This document shows positions 7,858 through 16,054 of a stretch of 64,000 nucleotides of DNA, piece after piece. Where the stretch lies: assembly GCA_900315435.1 (NCBI GenBank), contig OMYY01000002.1, positions 1-64,000 on the forward strand. Reading direction: 5' to 3'. Origin of the DNA: an uncultured Spirochaetaceae bacterium. GTDB taxonomy: Bacteria; Spirochaetota; Spirochaetia; Sphaerochaetales; Sphaerochaetaceae. The notes below the pieces were generated by a model. The model did no database searches. It saw only the letters and a list, made by a program, of their open reading frames with translations, and was not told where the DNA came from. Both the position numbers and the translations under genes were made by a program. Every line of letters begins with the position of its first letter. Position 1 is the first letter of the stretch.

Positions 7858-9159
7858 ATGATTCATAGTAGATTGGTGCTCGCCCATGGCGCGCTGTCAT
7901 TGGTTCCTTCCGAGTTCGCAAAGGAGTTTCCCGGCAAGAAGCCCTTGCTTTTCGCAGATGCCAATACCTGGCGTGTGGCTGGAGAGCAGGTATGGAAGGA
8001 GCTGGGAAAATGCGAGAAGCATGTGTACGATGACAAGGTGTATGCCGATGATGCCTATGTGGACGAGACTGCTACGGTCATCAACGCGCACCCTGACTGC
8101 ATCGCCGTCGCCGTCGGATCGGGTACCATCAACGACCTTTGCAAACGCGCTTCCTTCCTTGCCGGGCGCCAATACCTGTGTGTGGCGACCGCCCCGAGCG
8201 TGGATGGGTTCACCAGCAACGGCGCTGCAATTACCGACCATGGCCTGAAGGTCACCCAGCAGTGTCCGGCTCCTTGCCTGGTAGTCGCCGATCCCGACAT
8301 CCTTTCCGCCTCTCCGATGGACATGATTGCCAGCGGGTACGGGGATCTTGCCGCCAAAGTTCCTGCTGGAGCCGATTGGATCATTGCCGATGCGCTCGGT
8401 ATCGAGCCGGTCGACCAGCATGTCTGGGAGATGGTGCAGCCGAAACTCAAATGGCAGATTGCCGAACCGGCGAAGCTCCATGCCCGGGACAGCGAGGTGA
8501 TTGCCCGGGTTTTCGACGGCTTGATCCATACCGGATTCGCCATGCAGGAATACTTTGATTCCCGTCCGGCAAGCGGTGCCGACCACCTGTTCAGCCACGT
8601 CTGGGAAATGAACCATATCGGGTTCTGGAAGGGGACGGCGGCCAGTCATGGCTTCAAGGTGGCTATCGGAACGCTCTCCTCGACCGCCATCATGACCGAG
8701 TTGCTCAAGCTTGCTCCCAGTGACCTGCGGACCCTGGTCGCCAAGGCGCCGCATCCGCTCTTCGCCGAACGCGAGGCCCAGGTGCGCACGTATGTCACGA
8801 TCAGCAAGTCGGTAGCCGACCGTCAGGTGGAGATTTGCAGACAGAAATGGCTCGAGGGAGAGCAACTTGACCAGAGACGGGCGAAAATCCTGGAGGTCTG
8901 GGAAACAATGATGGAAAAGGTGCGTCGGCAGATCATTCCTTTCGACGACCTGAAGGAACGCTTCCGTCTGGCTGGCTGTCCGACCGAGCCGGGCGACCTG
9001 GCCATCAGCCGCCAGCAGTGGCAATACGGCATGCGGGTGGCGCAGATGATGCGCAAGCGCTATACCGTATTGGACATCGTCTACGAGCTGGGCTTGATGG
9101 ACAGCATGATTGAGGAAATCAGCAATCCATCCGGACCTTATTTCCACGACTTCGCTTGA
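7858..9159 (+). CDS. sn-glycerol-1-phosphate dehydrogenase (AraM/EgsA-like)
   Basis: A 433-residue member of the iron-containing alcohol dehydrogenase/dehydroquinate synthase superfamily. The nucleotide-binding G-S-G-T-I-N-D is near residue 87 and T-A-P-S-V-D-G-F-T-S near 115. The G-Y-G-D-L-A-A-K block and later His residues (G-A-D-H-L-F-S-H-V-W-E) fit the metal site of glycerol-1-phosphate dehydrogenases. These enzymes reduce dihydroxyacetone phosphate to sn-glycerol-1-phosphate with NAD(P)H. The precursor is that of archaeal lipids; in bacteria it serves heptaprenylglyceryl phosphate or has unknown roles. GGAGGTGG precedes the ATG. The protein is about 40 residues longer at its C-terminal side than B. 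subtilis AraM, with a charged helical extension. Confidence 0.8.
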   Translation: MIHSRLVLAHGALSLVPSEFAKEFPGKKPLLFADANTWRVAGEQVWKELGKCEKHVYDDKVYADDAYVDETATVINAHPDCIAVAVGSGTINDLCKRASFLAGRQYLCVATAPSVDGFTSNGAAITDHGLKVTQQCPAPCLVVADPDILSASPMDMIASGYGDLAAKVPAGADWIIADALGIEPVDQHVWEMVQPKLKWQIAEPAKLHARDSEVIARVFDGLIHTGFAMQEYFDSRPASGADHLFSHVWEMNHIGFWKGTAASHGFKVAIGTLSSTAIMTELLKLAPSDLRTLVAKAPHPLFAEREAQVRTYVTISKSVADRQVEICRQKWLEGEQLDQRRAKILEVWETMMEKVRRQIIPFDDLKERFRLAGCPTEPGDLAISRQQWQYGMRVAQMMRKRYTVLDIVYELGLMDSMIEEISNPSGPYFHDFA

Positions 9160-9257: not shown

Positions 9258-9285
9258 TTGAATACTTATGCATGCTTGGTATAAA
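9258..9285 (+). promoter_or_regulatory. Promoter of the peptide ABC transporter operon
   Basis: TTGAAT (9258-9263), 16-base spacer, TATAAA (9280-9285), with expected start near 9292. The region 9160-9257 upstream holds only an imperfect GC-rich hairpin (9177-9208) past the dehydrogenase stop. The transcript would carry a leader of about 200 bases before the binding-protein gene. Confidence 0.6.
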
Positions 9286-9317
9286 GTGTGTCCAACTTCA
9301 ACGGGAGGACGCGCAAA

Positions 9318-9377
9318 ATGAGACATTCTGGTTTTTCCATGTGCATGATGTCCTCCATGATGCCCGTCCGGGCATAA
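9318..9377 (+). CDS. Met-rich leader peptide ORF (19 aa)
   Basis: ATG 9318 to TAA 9377 encodes MRHSGFSMCMMSSMMPVRA, with six Met in 19 residues. It has the best ribosome-binding site of the leader: GGAGGA (9304-9309) with eight-base spacing. It is the first ORF on the predicted operon transcript. A GTCCTCC at 9350-9356 inside the ORF is perfectly complementary to the SD stretch GGAGGAC 9304-9310. A short hairpin at its stop codon is followed by a U-rich tract. These are the usual ingredients of translation-dependent leader regulation. Whether the peptide is made is unknown. Confidence 0.45.
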   Translation: MRHSGFSMCMMSSMMPVRA

Positions 9378-9392
9378 CATATTCTTTTCCTC
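9360..9392 (+). promoter_or_regulatory. Hairpin plus U-rich tract at the end of the leader ORF (possible weak attenuator)
   Basis: ATGCCC (9360-9365) pairs with GGGCAT (9370-9375) around loop GTCC. The stop codon TAA partly overlaps the 3' arm, and ATATTCTTTTCC-like U-rich sequence follows. The stem is short, so termination would be weak. A ribosome finishing the leader ORF would cover it. Confidence 0.35.
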
Positions 9393-9491
9393 TTTCAATC
9401 GTTCGTACTGGTTTGTGGATTCTCTCAGGGCTTTTTGTACCCATGAGCAGACATGTCGAGGCCTATTGTGCCAATTACAGGAGATACATCA

Positions 9492-11111
9492 ATGAAGAGA
9501 ACTTTGACTTTTGCCCTCGCGCTCGTGCTTGCCACATCGGCTGCCTGGGCCAACGGCGCCAAGGAAGCGGCTCCGAAAGCAAACGGTGCCGCAGTGGCGG
9601 GAACCCCGCAGAAGAAGGTGCTTGCCTTCGGACAGGCAACCTATGGCGAGACGCTGGACATGCAGATTTCCACCGGAAGTCTCGCGGCCTCCATAGCCGA
9701 CGAGGTAACGGAAAGCCTGTTGCGCTTCGATGACGACAACAACGAGGAAGTGGTGCTTTTGACCGACTTCCCGACCTTGAGCGAGGATGGCAAGACCTAT
9801 GCCTTCGAGCTGAAGCAGGGGGTCTATTTCACCGATGGCACGGAACTCCATTCCTCCGATGTCAAGTTCACCTTCGAGCGCATGTTCACTCCTTCCACCG
9901 GAGCGAAGAGCTACAGCTATTTCAACATGATTGTCGGAGCCAAGGACATGCTGGCGGGCAAAGCGACCGAGCTGGCAGGCTTCCAGATCCAGGACGACTA
10001 CCACTTCACCATCACCTTGGAATATCCCTTCGCGCCGTTCTTGGAGAACATCGGGACCAGTTACGCCGACATTTTCCCGGAAAAGGCTTGCAAGGCTGCC
10101 GGCAAAAGCTGGGGTGTCGACACCAACCTGATCGGTACCGGCCCCTACAAGATCCAGAGCAACGACGGCAACACGGTCTGCGTCCTGGTGAAGAACGAGA
10201 ACTACCATGGTGGTCAGGTCAACCTGGATGAGATCGACATCAAGTTCTACTCGGACAACACGACCAAACTGCTTGCCTATGAGAACGGCGATATCGACGT
10301 CACGGATCTTTCCGCCGCATTGCTCGGGCAGTACAAGGATGCCTATGGCGACCAGATCACCTCCTACCATCCGCTCGGAACCACCTTCCTGAGCCTGAAC
10401 CTGGACAACGAGGTGCTTTCCAACCTGAAGGTCCGTCAGGCCCTTTCCTATGCGGTCGACCGCCAGGAGCTGGTCCGGTACGTCCTTGACGGAGCAGGAA
10501 CCCCGGCCAACACCTACTTGAACCCGGCCATCCCCGGACACGACGATTCGCTTCCGGTCTACGAGTTCAACATCGAGAAGGCCAAGAGCCTGCTTGCCGA
10601 GGCTGGGTATCCCGATGGCGTGACCATCAGTGGCGGCAAGGTCCGTCAGAGCGAGTCCGCCCTCGCCGAGGCCGTACAGGGGTATGTGGCGCGCGCCGGC
10701 ATCAACCTGGTCTATGACGTGGTCGACAACGCCACCTGGAACCAGGCCCGCGCGTCCCAGAGCCTGCCGTTCACCTTCATCACTTGGAACGCCCTGTACG
10801 CTGACGCCGATTTCCAAGTCTACAACTACTTCTACAGCACCTATAGCAAGGGAAAGAGCGTCAACTATAAAAACCCCCAGTTCGATGCCTTGATGGACCA
10901 GGCCCGTGTGGTCAGCGATCCAGCAAAGCGCGCCGAGCTGTACAGGCAGGCCGACCAGCTGATGTCCCACACCGACCAGGTCTGCGTGCCGCTCTACTAT
11001 CCGCAGAGCCAGTTCCTCGCCAGACCCTACGTCAAGAACATGAAGGTCGGCAACCTGATCTACCACCTATGGAACGTGGATGTCGACGCCGATGCCAAAG
11101 CGAAGTTCTGA
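9492..11111 (+). CDS. Peptide ABC transporter substrate-binding protein (SBP family 5)
   Basis: A 539-residue periplasmic binding protein of the OppA/DppA family. The start was moved to ATG 9492, which has AGGAG seven bases upstream and opens a classical signal peptide; the mature chain starts around W-A-N-G-A-K-E. There is no lipobox Cys. Family features include F-E-L-K-Q-G-V-Y-F-T-D-G-T, the S-D-V-K-F-T-F-E-R segment, R-Q-A-L-S-Y-A-V-D-R, and the C-terminal R-A-E-L-Y-R-Q-A-D block. It captures oligopeptides or dipeptides and delivers them to the two permeases encoded next. First structural gene of the operon. Confidence 0.9.
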   Translation: MKRTLTFALALVLATSAAWANGAKEAAPKANGAAVAGTPQKKVLAFGQATYGETLDMQISTGSLAASIADEVTESLLRFDDDNNEEVVLLTDFPTLSEDGKTYAFELKQGVYFTDGTELHSSDVKFTFERMFTPSTGAKSYSYFNMIVGAKDMLAGKATELAGFQIQDDYHFTITLEYPFAPFLENIGTSYADIFPEKACKAAGKSWGVDTNLIGTGPYKIQSNDGNTVCVLVKNENYHGGQVNLDEIDIKFYSDNTTKLLAYENGDIDVTDLSAALLGQYKDAYGDQITSYHPLGTTFLSLNLDNEVLSNLKVRQALSYAVDRQELVRYVLDGAGTPANTYLNPAIPGHDDSLPVYEFNIEKAKSLLAEAGYPDGVTISGGKVRQSESALAEAVQGYVARAGINLVYDVVDNATWNQARASQSLPFTFITWNALYADADFQVYNYFYSTYSKGKSVNYKNPQFDALMDQARVVSDPAKRAELYRQADQLMSHTDQVCVPLYYPQSQFLARPYVKNMKVGNLIYHLWNVDVDADAKAKF

Positions 11112-11193
11112 GATCGCGTCAAAAGGATGAGGGGGGATTCCCCCTTGTCCTTTTGGTATGCTTGCGATATGCATAGGGAAGGAAGGTGAGGCA

Positions 11194-12117
11194 TTGAGGC
11201 ATTATCTGATACAGCGGATCTTGCTTGCGCTTGGCATTCTGCTTGCCATCAGCATCATCACGTTTTTCGTTCTGAACATCATTCCTGGCGACCCGGTCGC
11301 CCTCATGCTGGGGGACAACGTCGACCCGGAAACCATCGAGACGGTCCGGCACAACCTTGGCATGGACAAGGGGCTCGGCACGCAGTATGTCGAGTGGATT
11401 GCCGGATTTGTGACCGGAAACATGGGCGAGAGCTATTTCCAGCACAAGCCGGTGCTGGGCATGATTGTCGACGCTTTCGGATATACGGCGCGGCTTGCGG
11501 TGGTCGCCTACGCGGTCGCCTTGGCCATCGGCCTTTCCTTCGGCATCCTTGCCGCCCTGCATCGGGGCAAGGTCCTGGACCGGGTGTTGATGGCCTTCGC
11601 CGTCGCCGGTATCAGCGCCCCATCCTTCTGGGTGGCGATTGTGTTGCAGATCTTTATCGGTCTGCGTTTCCGCGCCATTCCCATCAGCGGCCTGGACAGG
11701 CCTGCCGCATACTTGCTTCCTTGTCTTTCCCTTGGTACCAGGTACGCGGCGTCGATTGCCCGTATCACCAGGACCAGCATGCTGGAGGTCATGAACCAGG
11801 ATTTCATCCGCACCGCCCGGGCCAAGGGGCTTGCGCGGACGCGCATTGTCATGGTGCACATGTTCCGCAATGCCTTGATTCCCATCATCACCGTCATCGG
11901 CACCGACCTGACGACCCTGTTCGCCGGCAGCATGCTGACCGAATCGGTGTTCAACATTCCCGGAATGGGAAAGCTTCTTGTGGACAATATCACCAAGCGC
12001 GACATTCCGGTCGTGCAGGGGGGTGTCATGATGGTGGCGCTCCTGTGCGTCGTCATCTATCTGGTTGTCGACCTGCTCTACGCGGCGGTCGACCCGAACA
12101 TCCGGCTGGAGGAGTGA
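11194..12117 (+). CDS. Peptide ABC transporter permease (OppB/DppB family)
   Basis: A 307-residue inner-membrane permease with six predicted helices. The start is taken as TTG 11194 (L-R-H-Y-L-I-Q-R-I-L-L) because it follows GGAAGGTGAGG and matches the family's R-R-L-L-x-x-I start; an upstream in-frame ATG lacks a ribosome-binding site. The N-terminal loop G-D-P-V-A-L-M-L-G-D and the EAA loop T-A-R-A-K-G-L (about 214-220) are typical of DppB/OppB. It pairs with the next gene, 3 bases downstream. Confidence 0.9.
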   Translation: MRHYLIQRILLALGILLAISIITFFVLNIIPGDPVALMLGDNVDPETIETVRHNLGMDKGLGTQYVEWIAGFVTGNMGESYFQHKPVLGMIVDAFGYTARLAVVAYAVALAIGLSFGILAALHRGKVLDRVLMAFAVAGISAPSFWVAIVLQIFIGLRFRAIPISGLDRPAAYLLPCLSLGTRYAASIARITRTSMLEVMNQDFIRTARAKGLARTRIVMVHMFRNALIPIITVIGTDLTTLFAGSMLTESVFNIPGMGKLLVDNITKRDIPVVQGGVMMVALLCVVIYLVVDLLYAAVDPNIRLEE

Positions 12118-12120
12118 GCC

Positions 12121-12990
12121 ATGGAAGAGAAACGCAAGGATCCCGCTTCCCGCGGCTACTATCAGGAAAGCTGGAAAATCCTGAGAAAGAATCCTGTGGC
12201 GATGGTCTGCCTGGCCATCGTCCTGCTTCTGGTCTTCATCGCGCTTTTCGCTCCGCTTGTCGCCCCGTTCGATCCTGACGCCATCGACATGCCAAGCAAG
12301 CTGAAGGCGCCCGACAGCGTCCATCTGTTCGGTTGCGATGAATTGGGAAGGGACATCCTTTCCCGGTGCATCTATGGGTGCCGCGTCAGCCTTTCGGTCG
12401 GCATCGTCAGCCAGCTGATCGCCGTGGTGATCGGATATTTCATGGGGGTCTGCGCCGGCTACTTCGGAGGAAAGTCCGATGCGGCCATCTCCTTCCTGAT
12501 CCAGGTGTTCGCCAGCCTTCCCGACCTGTTGTTGGCCATGGCGCTGATGTTCGCCTTAGGAAGGGGACTTGGAAACCTGTACATTGCCCTCGGTGTCCTT
12601 TCCTGGGCCAAGACGGCACGGCTTGTCCGCGGTACCGTGCTGCAGCTGAAGGAAAAGGAATACGTCAAGGCCTGCAGGATTGATGGCGGAAGCAGTTTCC
12701 GCATCATCATGAAGCACCTGCTGCCCAACTGCATCCCCACCCTGATCATCACCGTCACCATGGGCATCCCGTCGGCAATCCTTTCCGAGGCGAGCCTTTC
12801 CTTCCTCGGACTGGGAGTCCGCGCTCCCATGTCGAGCTGGGGCATGATGATTTCCTCGTCCAAGACCTTTATCCGCACCAGCCCCTTCTATTCCCTGTTC
12901 CCGGGCTTATGCATCATCATCACGGTCATCGCGTTCAACATGCTGGGTGACGGCCTCAGGGATGCCCTCGACCCGAAACTCAGAAAGTAG
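12121..12990 (+). CDS. Peptide ABC transporter permease (OppC/DppC family)
   Basis: A 289-residue permease with an N-terminal OppC_N segment (S-W-K-I-L-R-K-N-P-V-A-M-V) and six helices. The G-C-D-E-L-G-R-D-I-L-S-R motif sits before helix 2, and the EAA loop K-A-C-R-I-D-G-G-S lies at about 181-189. It starts three bases after the previous stop. It forms the translocation pore with the OppB-type subunit. Confidence 0.9.
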   Translation: MEEKRKDPASRGYYQESWKILRKNPVAMVCLAIVLLLVFIALFAPLVAPFDPDAIDMPSKLKAPDSVHLFGCDELGRDILSRCIYGCRVSLSVGIVSQLIAVVIGYFMGVCAGYFGGKSDAAISFLIQVFASLPDLLLAMALMFALGRGLGNLYIALGVLSWAKTARLVRGTVLQLKEKEYVKACRIDGGSSFRIIMKHLLPNCIPTLIITVTMGIPSAILSEASLSFLGLGVRAPMSSWGMMISSSKTFIRTSPFYSLFPGLCIIITVIAFNMLGDGLRDALDPKLRK

Positions 12991-13000
12991 GGGAGCGGCC

Positions 13001-13984
13001 ATGAGCGATATTGTCCTGTCTGTCGAGCACCTTTCCATCACCTTTTTCAAGGATAAGGCGTCCATTCCCACCATCGATGATGTCAGCTTCACTTTGGAGC
13101 GGGGAGAGACCCTTGGCATCGTCGGCGAGTCTGGCTGTGGCAAGAGCATGACCGTCAACGGAATCCTGCAGATGGTTCCCGAACCGGGGAGAATCACCGG
13201 TGGCAGCATCAAGCTGCATGGCGACGAATTGGTCGGGCTTTCCGAGCGGAAACTTGCCGGGTACCGCGGCAAGGAGATCGCGTTGATTTTCCAGGAGCCG
13301 ATGACCAGCCTGAACCCGCTGATGAGATGCGGTGCCCAGATTGCCGAGACCATCCTTGCCCACGACCACTCCGTCAGCCGGAAAAAGGCTGATGCCCGTG
13401 CTCTCGAGCTGATCAGGCAGGTCGGCATCCCGATGCCGGAGAAGATATTCGACTCGATTCCCGGTGAGCTCTCCGGAGGCATGCGCCAGCGTATCGTCAT
13501 CGCCATGGCCCTGTGCAACCACCCGTCCGTCCTGATTTGCGATGAGCCGACGACCGCCTTGGACGTGACCATCCAGGCGCAGATCCTGCGGCTGGTCAAC
13601 GAGATGAAGCGGAGCTACAATACCGGCGTCATCTTCATCACCCACGACATGGGCGTCATCCGGGAGATGGCCGACCAGGTGATGGTCATGTACGCCGGCC
13701 AGGCGGTGGAATATGTCGATGCCGACGAACTTTTCAGGCACCCGTTGCACCCCTATACCCAAGGACTGATCAAGTGCATCCCTTCGTTCGGAAAGGATGA
13801 GGAGGAGCTATACGTGATCGAGGGTTCGGTGCCTTTGCTGGACCATTTGCCCAAGGGATGCCTGTTCGCCCCGCGTTGCCCGTATGCAACCCAGCGGTGC
13901 CACACGGCTCGTCCCCAGCTTGTGGGGGAAAAACGGCACAGGGTACGCTGTTTCCTGTATGAGAAGGAGGGTGGTGATGCGTGA
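13001..13984 (+). CDS. Peptide ABC transporter ATP-binding protein (OppD/DppD family)
   Basis: A 327-residue ATPase. Walker A is G-E-S-G-C-G-K-S (near residue 41), Q-loop F-Q-E-P-M-T-S-L-N-P, signature L-S-G-G-M-R-Q-R, and Walker B I-C-D-E-P-T-T-A-L-D. The C-terminal oligo_HPY region is P-H-P-Y-T-Q-G-L with the Cys cluster C-L-F-A-P-R-C-P-Y-A that can bind Fe-S in this family. ATG 13001 was chosen over an upstream start that would overlap the permease gene. It overlaps the next ATPase gene by 8 bases. Confidence 0.92.
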   Translation: MSDIVLSVEHLSITFFKDKASIPTIDDVSFTLERGETLGIVGESGCGKSMTVNGILQMVPEPGRITGGSIKLHGDELVGLSERKLAGYRGKEIALIFQEPMTSLNPLMRCGAQIAETILAHDHSVSRKKADARALELIRQVGIPMPEKIFDSIPGELSGGMRQRIVIAMALCNHPSVLICDEPTTALDVTIQAQILRLVNEMKRSYNTGVIFITHDMGVIREMADQVMVMYAGQAVEYVDADELFRHPLHPYTQGLIKCIPSFGKDEEELYVIEGSVPLLDHLPKGCLFAPRCPYATQRCHTARPQLVGEKRHRVRCFLYEKEGGDA

Positions 13985-14954
13985 TGTGGTCCTGAAGGTC
14001 GAGCACCTGAAGAAATACTATCCGCTCCGCCATGCGGGGAAAGGGGAGAACGCCTTGGTCAAGGCTTGCGACGACGTCAGCTTCGAGCTTCGTTCGGGCG
14101 AGGTCCTTGGCATCGTCGGTGAATCGGGTTGCGGCAAGACGACGACCATGCAATCGGTCATCCGCCTGATTGAGCCCACCAGCGGGAAGATCACCCTTTG
14201 CGGGCAGGACTTCCGGTCCCTGAAGGGGAAGGACCTGAAAGAGGCGAGGACGCGCATGAAGCTGATTTTCCAGGATCCCTATTCCAGCCTGAATCCCCGC
14301 ATGACGGTCCGGGAGATTATCGCCGAGCCGCTGGACATCGCTCATGGTTGTTCCTCGCGCAAAGAGCGGGAAGAACTGGTATTGCAGGCGATGCGGCAGG
14401 TAGGGCTGGATCCTGCCTTCGCCAACCGCTATCCCCACGAATTCTCCGGCGGGCAGCGGCAACGTATCGGCATCGCCCGCGCTATCATCCTGCATCCTGC
14501 AGTCGCCATCTGCGACGAGCCGGTCAGCGCCTTGGATGTTTCCATCCAGGCCAAGATCATCAACCTGCTCAAACGGCTGCAGAAAGAGCTGGGAACCGCC
14601 TACATTTTCATCAGCCATGACCTAGGGGTCGTGCGTCATATCGCCGACACGGTGTTGGTCATGTACTTGGGCAGGGTGGTGGAGCAGGGTTCTTGTGAAG
14701 CGGTCTTCAAGAACCCCCTGCATCCCTATACAAAGGCGTTGCTTGCGTCGATTCCCCGCATCGACAGTGAGCGAGGAGTTCCCGAGGCGGTTCTTGCCGG
14801 GGATGTTCCTTCACCGGCGAATCCCCCTTCGGGATGCCTGTTCCATACCCGGTGTCCCTATAGCCAAAGCAGGTGCGAGACGGAAAGTCCCCTTCTCAGG
14901 GGAACGCGTGACCACCAGTGCGCCTGCCATTTTGCGGAGACATTGGCACAATAA
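13977..14954 (+). CDS. Peptide ABC transporter ATP-binding protein (OppF/DppF family)
   Basis: A 325-residue ATPase, partner of the OppD-type subunit. Walker A is G-E-S-G-C-G-K-T-T, Q-loop F-Q-D-P-Y-S-S-L-N-P, signature F-S-G-G-Q-R-Q-R, and Walker B I-C-D-E-P-V-S-A-L-D. The C-terminal H-P-Y-T-K-A-L-L is followed by C-L-F-H-T-R-C-P-Y-S-Q-S-R-C. The start is ATG 13977 with a GGAGG in the end of the preceding gene. The two ATPases together drive peptide import. Confidence 0.92.
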   Translation: MRDVVLKVEHLKKYYPLRHAGKGENALVKACDDVSFELRSGEVLGIVGESGCGKTTTMQSVIRLIEPTSGKITLCGQDFRSLKGKDLKEARTRMKLIFQDPYSSLNPRMTVREIIAEPLDIAHGCSSRKEREELVLQAMRQVGLDPAFANRYPHEFSGGQRQRIGIARAIILHPAVAICDEPVSALDVSIQAKIINLLKRLQKELGTAYIFISHDLGVVRHIADTVLVMYLGRVVEQGSCEAVFKNPLHPYTKALLASIPRIDSERGVPEAVLAGDVPSPANPPSGCLFHTRCPYSQSRCETESPLLRGTRDHQCACHFAETLAQ

Positions 14955-14974
14955 AGGAAAACGAGGTTACCCAT

Positions 14975-16054
14975 ATGGAATTCAATCGAGATGTTTTGAA
15001 AACGGAGTTCCGTGAGATGATCGAAATGTTGTGTTCTGCCTGTGCCCCCTCGGGCTTCGAGGGGGAGGCTGCTGCTGTCGTCCGTTCGTTCCTTCCCCGG
15101 GATGGCTATGAGATTTCGACCGACAGGCTGCACAACCTGGTTGTCCATAAACCTGGCAAAGGCCCGAAGGTGGCTGTCGTGGCGCATCTTGACGAGATTG
15201 GCCTGATCATCCGCTCGGTGGACAGCCATGGCTTCTGCTGGATCGAGACGTTGGCAGGCCTGCAACCCCAGCAGCTTTTTGGCAAGCATGTGATTGTCCT
15301 GACGGAGAAGGGGCATGTCGACGGGGTAGTCAACCATGTCAAGCCTGGCCGCCCGGCCCCTTGCACGCAGATGCCGACCACTTTGGAGGACTTCTTCATC
15401 GACGTTGGCGCCTTCAGCAGGGAAGACGCCTTGGCCATGGGTGTGGAACCTGGTTGCGCGGTGGTGATGGACTACCCGACTGTTTTCTTGGGCAAGGACA
15501 AGTTGACGGTCGCCGGCAAGGCCTTGGACGACAGGGCGTGTGACTGGCAGCTGATTGAGTTGGCCAGACTGCTCGCCGACGAGCCGGTCGACGCGGACTT
15601 CTATGCGGTCTTCTCCACCCAAGAGGAGGTCGGAGGTCGAGGCGCCATCGTCGCCGCCCAGCATATCAGGCCTGACTACGTGGTAGCCCTGGACATGTCC
15701 CTTTCCACCGACTTGCCTGGTATGGCCGAGAAGCAGATGGTCAACGCCATGCGTTCTGGCGCTTCGATCAAGGTGATGGATCGCAGCCGTGGCGCCGCCT
15801 GTGGCCTGATCGCCGATCCGGATGTGGTGCGGAGCATGAAGGATATCTGCAGGGAGCATCATATTCCGTATCAAATCGAGGCGTACGCGGCGGGGGCCAC
15901 GGACGCAAGTGTCATGCAGACGCGTGGTGGTGGCAGCTCCGCTGGCGGCATCCAGATTCCGATGCGCTACGTCCATAGTTACGAGACTGCCTATATTCCT
16001 GACATCCTGGATGGCTTGGAATTGCTCTGGAGATGGGTGCGGAGCATCCGGTAA
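14975..16054 (+). CDS. M42-family metallo-aminopeptidase
   Basis: A 359-residue cytosolic aminopeptidase of the M42 (FrvX/PepA-like) family. Co-catalytic metal ligands can be traced: H-L-D-E-I-G (first His/Asp), the D-D-R-A-C-D bridging Asp, S-T-Q-E-E-V-G-G-R-G (Glu base and ligand), A-L-D-M-S-L, and a C-terminal R-Y-V-H-S-Y-E His. ATG 14975 was chosen for position and its AGGAAAACGAGG upstream. Its place as last gene of the peptide-import operon suggests it trims imported peptides to amino acids. Confidence 0.88.
   Translation: MEFNRDVLKTEFREMIEMLCSACAPSGFEGEAAAVVRSFLPRDGYEISTDRLHNLVVHKPGKGPKVAVVAHLDEIGLIIRSVDSHGFCWIETLAGLQPQQLFGKHVIVLTEKGHVDGVVNHVKPGRPAPCTQMPTTLEDFFIDVGAFSREDALAMGVEPGCAVVMDYPTVFLGKDKLTVAGKALDDRACDWQLIELARLLADEPVDADFYAVFSTQEEVGGRGAIVAAQHIRPDYVVALDMSLSTDLPGMAEKQMVNAMRSGASIKVMDRSRGAACGLIADPDVVRSMKDICREHHIPYQIEAYAAGATDASVMQTRGGGSSAGGIQIPMRYVHSYETAYIPDILDGLELLWRWVRSIR

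Follow-up and report, generated by a model that had tools for sequence, protein, structure and literature searches.

The window, meaning the whole 64,000-nucleotide stretch of spirochaete DNA that was analysed, carries a 200-nt leader followed by an apparent operon for a peptide ABC transporter and an aminopeptidase (Table 1). By direct reading we found all elements that the original prediction had described in their places: the promoter, the Shine-Dalgarno (SD) sequence, the 19-codon ORF with six Met, the exact complement of the SD within this ORF, the hairpin at the stop codon and the U-rich tract. The promoter is absent from the list of a strict consensus promoter scan; its -35 and extended -10 elements (9258 to 9285) are also kept in the orthologue of the sister species G002, and the RNA would be expected to start at about 9291 to 9294. 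The 5' arm of the hairpin is formed by the last Met codon and the Pro codon of the ORF, its 3' arm ends on the first base of the stop codon, and the sequence behind it reads CATATTCTTTTCCTCTTTC.

Table 1. Positions of the leader elements and of the operon genes in the window
Feature	Position	Strand	Remark	Basis
Promoter -35, TTGAAT	9258-9263	+	predicted promoter	sequence
Promoter extended -10, TGG-TATAAA	TATAAA at 9280-9285	+	16-nt spacer to -35	sequence
Leader SD, GGAGGAC (arm A)	9304-9310	+		sequence; covariation with arm B in relatives
Leader ORF, MRHSGFSMCMMSSMMPVRA and stop	9318-9377	+	6 Met in 19 codons	sequence; family homologues
Anti-SD segment, GTCCTCC (arm B)	9350-9356	+	within the ORF; exact complement of arm A	sequence, fold, covariation
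Five-Met-codon cluster (9339, 9345, 9348, 9357, 9360)	9339-9362	+	presumed stall sites	position-wise Met conservation
Hairpin, ATGCCC-GTCC-GGGCAT	9360-9375	+	terminator-like; overlaps stop	sequence, fold, near-invariant arms
U-rich, G-free tract	9380-9396	+	3' of hairpin	sequence; family-wide base composition
Peptide ABC transporter substrate-binding protein (SBP_bac_5)	9492-11111	+	first gene under the leader	Pfam PF00496, 8.5e-86
Peptide ABC transporter permease, OppB/DppB-like	11158-12117	+		NCBIfam
Peptide ABC transporter permease, OppC/DppC-like	12121-12990	+		NCBIfam
Peptide ABC transporter ATPase, OppD-like	12947-13984	+	true start probably about 13001	NCBIfam
Peptide ABC transporter ATPase, OppF/DppF-like	13884-14954	+	true start probably about 13974	NCBIfam
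M42 aminopeptidase	14918-16054	+	true start probably about 14975; last gene of apparent operon	Pfam PF05343, 1e-73

When the first 107 nt of the leader were folded, exactly two hairpins resulted, the terminal one and the SD/anti-SD helix (-30.5 kcal/mol; z = -2.7 relative to shuffled sequences), and folding of the remaining leader added no significant structure. No Rfam family matched the locus, either by gathering score or at E<=1, and NCBIfam holds no model for these peptides. Directly upstream of the leader (7858-9159) lies the gene of a 433-residue iron-containing alcohol dehydrogenase family protein, which is glycerol-1-phosphate dehydrogenase-like (PF13685).

NCBIfam and Pfam confirmed the peptide ABC operon setting that had been proposed for the window. 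The substrate-binding protein has a 95% identical orthologue in G002 only, and the opp operon with its leader is limited to the window species and this sister. The direct orthologue (L033) has GCCCTCC as its complementary segment, with one mismatch to its own SD, so that one base of pairing is lost. Across the family the main partner of the leader is instead metQ, as described below; the opp operon is a lineage-specific recruit, and the main home of the leader system is metQ.

Leader copies in the spirochaete family and their downstream genes

In the window's own genome, a DNA search detected a second copy of the 3' half of the ORF (85% identity) ahead of metQ, and more copies of the leader occur in both other species of the genus. 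We extended the search to a family set of 139 genomes from 22 genera, including Bullifex porci, Candidatus Ornithospirochaeta and Sphaerochaetaceae MAGs; Sphaerochaetaceae is presumably the name for the entire group, and NCBI files Bullifex under Spirochaetaceae. The pattern ATGATGCCCNNNNGGGCATAA, with at most one mismatch, matched 69 of the 139 genomes, and the reversed control pattern gave two matches in total. A covariance model built from 31 copies had matches in 81 of the 139 genomes and in 8 of the 22 genera. The same type of search in a 393-genome sample of the phylum gave no credible match outside the family; the matches in other Spirochaetota (L234-L237) were rejected as low-complexity chance matches. 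The family leader is an ORF of about 20 codons with the consensus MMMSSMMMPxRA before the stop codon.

The results showed that 67 of the 71 downstream proteins cluster as MetQ (Pfam PF03180), with the leader stop almost always 80-120 nt upstream of metQ. Other copies precede genes of MetN (L036 in G002; TIGR02314, E 1e-119), of MetA (L230; NF047918, E 1e-119) and of a YbdH/HcxA-like oxidoreductase/dehydrogenase followed by a YbdL-like protein (L104 in G021:C37); the latter has methionine aminotransferase among its best models, which suggests an operon for methionine transamination. At loci with metI in reach, the leader stop mostly follows it by 170-330 nt. At the metQ copy of the window organism, metI and the leader are separated by a terminator-like hairpin that carries a T run, so this leader heads a unit of its own. 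Sphaerochaeta and other genera without the leader have metQ about 18-56 nt after metI.

In Bullifex and related MAGs (L040, L067, L225, L054 and L055) the gene after the leader encodes a circularly permuted MetQ, in which residues ~31-163 align to MetQ 131-259 and residues ~195-295 to MetQ 27-126. The Met leader is retained ahead of it; Bullifex (G061) possesses an ordinary metQ with a leader as well. In one genus (L057-L099) a second small and variable hairpin (GGTCCCTAGGGAC-like) lies about 50 nt 3' of the leader stop, and with it a conserved CCACCACATC stretch; both are located between leader and metQ, and the window copy lacks them. The extra hairpin was rejected as a part of the leader; it does not covary with the leader and is missing outside this genus.

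Translation of the ORF and pairing of its Shine-Dalgarno sequence

We analyzed the reading frame in 55 non-redundant leaders. After the start codon, ATG occurs 302 times in frame and 7 times out of frame, and Met makes up 27% of the residues. The stop codon stands at one fixed position as TAA, TGA or TAG (23, 19 and 13 leaders). The in-frame excess of ATG and this interchange of stops at a fixed place indicate that the ORF is translated. Met codons are essentially invariant at -5 and -6 from the stop and prevail at -7, -10 and -12, and the codons between them vary freely (ATG-NNN-ATG with TGC, CGC, CAC, TCC or ATG). Length differences are whole codons (19-25), the indels keeping the frame. The hairpin arms are nearly invariant across the family. 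In the divergent copies L219, L220 and L222 the stop has shifted into the hairpin loop, and in L221 the hairpin core has changed jointly to ATGCGC/GCGCAT, a compensated change, with an earlier stop; the Met codons are kept in all of them. From these shifts and flips it follows that the conserved unit is the Met codons, the hairpin and a stop within the hairpin, not the peptide sequence.

The leader SD and its own ORF match each other better than expected. In 69 leaders the mean best-helix score of the SD region against its own ORF was 19.2, compared with 15.6 for swapped partners (maximum of 100 swaps, 16.4) and 12.7 for shuffled ORFs, and a repeat with 66 loci gave 19.1 versus 15.1 +/- 0.4; since the sequences are related and not independent, these and the following pairing figures are supportive and are not probabilities. 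The SD of the structural gene served as a control with the same phylogeny, and its score against the same segment at the 66 loci showed no excess (12.9 versus 13.1 swapped). In a fixed register, 80% of the cells pair, versus 76.5 +/- 0.9% with swapped partners, a value never reached in 2000 swaps. RNAalifold recovered both the SD/anti-SD helix and the terminal hairpin from 39 leaders of one genus, and one pair of this helix is G-C in 16 and A-U in 12 sequences, a compensatory exchange. The codon facing the SD varies with it as TCC, TTC or CTC, giving SS, FS or LS in the peptide. Judged from this covariation, the pairing of the leader SD with its anti-SD is under selection. The conservation in relatives that had been proposed as a check was thus found: the ORF, its Met codons, the SD/anti-SD pairing and the hairpin are kept across the family, mostly ahead of methionine-transport genes.

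A scan of 84,980 species genomes for the exact pattern gave 98 stretches. Most matches outside the spirochaetes (for example SISGVMMPWRA) are not leaders and usually lie within or antisense to long frames. Three stretches in Saccharibacteria lie ahead of metG, and one in a Parachlamydiales MAG (L201) lies ahead of metN-metI-metQ, with seven U directly 3' of the stop. A near-match search of 393 Saccharimonadia genomes added five leaders, each immediately before a metG-like start, bringing the total to eight: MTRTYFSVMMRMMPTRA, MSNFVTSNMHMMPPRA, MQRINPSSLRMMPCRA, MKAAAHTMHLMMPPRA, MQRSLRITTRAMFLMPSRA, MRSFRMPVVSRTMPQRA, MIRLVVTMFGHTMPPRA and the partly read L329. They are rare, as in an even sample one of 30 metG genes had the leader, and this was the seed genome itself. 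The Saccharimonadia ORFs (L325, L326, L328, L330, L150, L145 and L170) lack an SD, and their start codons follow a TATAAT-like -10 box by a few bases, which suggests leaderless translation of a regulatory ORF. Common to the phyla in these searches, which were tied to the CCC/GGG hairpin core, is an ORF in which a Met codon begins a stop-containing GC hairpin, followed by a U-rich stretch; the recurrence outside the spirochaetes may reflect descent, transfer or convergence.

Proposed action of the leader and alternative explanations

Taken together, the sequence evidence suggests that the Met-codon leader hairpin is very probably a switch that turns the downstream genes on at methionine shortage. 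The best explanation, which we consider probably correct, is an attenuator in which a ribosome reads a methionine leader peptide. The short ORF packed with Met codons would be transcribed first. Its SD can be closed by a segment of the ORF itself, so that the ORF would probably be read mainly by an early ribosome, late ribosomes being kept off. When charged Met-tRNA is scarce, the ribosome would stall on the Met codons, which lie within or immediately ahead of the GC hairpin's 5' arm; by occupying this arm it would hold the hairpin open, and RNA polymerase would continue into the transporter genes. When methionine is plentiful, or the leader is untranslated, the hairpin would form and transcription would mostly stop. 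Sequence comparison establishes the conservation, the translation, the SD/anti-SD pairing, the hairpin and the association with methionine genes; termination at the hairpin, the role of the stalled ribosome and the methionine response are inferred from these. Of the couplings that the original prediction had raised, this explanation retains the link between peptide import and methionine, to which the family conservation points, and it does not favour charged initiator tRNA as the signal, since the enrichment concerns Met codons inside the ORF, which the elongator tRNA reads.

Several features resemble trp- and his-type attenuation, namely a translatable leader ORF and an enrichment of the cognate codon ahead of metQ, metN, metA, a methionine-aminotransferase-like gene and metG. 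An alternative antiterminator that excludes the terminator was not among them: folding, the swap test and RNAalifold revealed no competing antiterminator hairpin, a comparison limited by the invariant arms, and the A:B helix and the terminal hairpin can coexist. Because no antiterminator was found, we file the leader as a variant of leader-peptide attenuation and not as a trp-type member. The stop codon lies within the hairpin, so that a ribosome positioned there would cover the hairpin too; the on/off logic would accordingly hinge on timing, which is the weak point of the explanation. A further point against the attenuator is that in some genera, among them Sphaerochaeta, metQ follows metI directly, with no leader.

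As a putative terminator, the element combines a conserved 6-bp hairpin with a U-rich tract at a spacing of 3-5 nt. Positions +1 to +10 after the stop contain 52-68% U and 0-3% G family-wide, compared with about 30% U further down, and the tract is weak in some copies, such as the metQ copy of the window genome. A consensus terminator scanner called no terminator at the window hairpin; the arrangement is clear in L201. An extension of the stem by post-stop bases across a bulge was rejected; position +2 is A in 45 of 55 leaders, yet the stem energies equal those of shuffled tails.

The placement of this tract, which is not ideal for an intrinsic terminator, is one of the points for the main rival, termination by Rho. 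A ribosome that has finished would leave and expose the G-poor, C/U-rich stretch after the stop to Rho, and a Met-stalled ribosome would mask it, a geometry like that of TnaC but lacking peptide arrest. Indeed, the first 20 nt behind the stop contain hardly any G (0-8%) and are dominated by U, followed by C. We nevertheless regard Rho as an unlikely agent, as the most conserved part is a GC hairpin that it would not need, and the Parachlamydiales copy resembles a plain intrinsic terminator. The SD comparison bears on translational attenuation, in which the anti-SD of the leader would sequester the SD of metQ or opp unless a ribosome stalls there. The segment is complementary to SD sequences generally, but swapping partners lowers the complementarity to the leader's own SD and leaves that of the structural gene's SD unlowered (12.9 versus 13.1), with no excess complementarity or covariation with the latter as in erm-type sequestration, which makes this explanation improbable.

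An arrest of the ribosome at the peptide end by free Met or SAM, as in TnaC or SpeFL, could account for the strongly conserved C-terminus MMPxRA. These residues are, however, the ones that the hairpin dictates: the C-terminus tracks the hairpin, other positions vary (any residue, then R/W/G), some leaders end at MMMP or MMMMR, and in L219-L222 the stop moves upstream, so a regulatory nascent peptide appears highly improbable. We give even less credence to a purely structured RNA, a riboswitch or protein site with an incidental ORF. Two hairpins, one with invariant arms, would suit it, but in-frame Met codons, interchangeable stops and frame-keeping indels would not, and no Rfam family matched even at E = 1; the covariance models of SAM riboswitches and T-boxes gave no hit, neither in the window at the gathering score nor at the locus with E<=1. 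A 20-codon ORF by itself is nothing unusual, and chance could in principle supply both the ORF and its complementarity; the family-wide conservation ahead of methionine genes refutes this, and its probability is close to nil.

For the ribosome-read attenuator we tentatively propose, as a possibility that we would put at somewhat below even, a compact form that unites sensor and terminator in a single object, the Met codons being the 5' arm and the stop lying in the hairpin, without an antiterminator. Such a form would have originated or become distributed in three or more phyla (Spirochaetota at metQ, metA and opp, Saccharimonadia at metG, Parachlamydiales at metNIQ), and the SD-closing arm of the spirochaetes would restrict its reading, in essence, to the first ribosome of each transcript.

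Relation to known control of methionine genes

Bacteria are known to control methionine genes by SAM riboswitches, Met T-boxes and repressors, and for many other amino acids leader peptides are standard textbook examples. In agreement with the original prediction, which knew of no described leader of this type, we found no match in Rfam or NCBIfam and no described Met-codon leader peptide in the open literature, a provisional result, as subscription papers and preprints lay outside its scope. If the proposed action is true, the leader supplies the missing case of a leader peptide that counts Met codons, and in the window organism it links peptide import to methionine supply. The hosts are host-associated spirochaetes, episymbiotic Saccharibacteria and relatives of Chlamydiae, in which regulation is little studied, and the design is unusually small and easy to test.

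Like the trp, his, thr, leu and phe leaders of proteobacteria, the element has a short ORF with many codons for the amino acid that the downstream genes serve and a terminator-like hairpin near the ORF end. It differs from them in that the amino acid is methionine, no separate antiterminator was found, Met codons build the 5' arm, the stop lies in the hairpin and the ORF closes the SD. The predicted leader ORF of Leptospira ilvB is the nearest precedent in spirochaetes (PMC10272879); together with the ilvB-II uORF of Corynebacterium it shares a conserved short uORF and a terminator-like stem, whereas it concerns branched-chain amino acids, has a described antiterminator pairing and is unrelated in sequence (PMC10272879). 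A survey of Actinobacteria reported no RNA element at methionine operons, and the leader ORFs of Mycobacterium cys operons in it likewise carry codons for a sulfur amino acid near the leader stop, but this is cysteine and there is no conserved hairpin (PMC1262725). In a terminator survey, methionine appears solely in connection with T-boxes and SAM riboswitches (PMC2965389). The Streptococcus fthC uORF candidate uORFC-39-1 comes closest in its tie to methionine, which is proposed as an indirect signal for it, and it too has its stop codon in a stem; its proposed action is via initiation speed and not via runs of Met codons, and it belongs to another gene and phylum (PMC11109978). SAM (S-box) riboswitches and Met T-boxes are likewise RNA elements over genes of methionine transport and synthesis; they differ in having no ORF, and neither matched the window locus in Rfam. 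Within the family, the SAM riboswitch is absent from the window genus and present in 22 of the 139 genomes.
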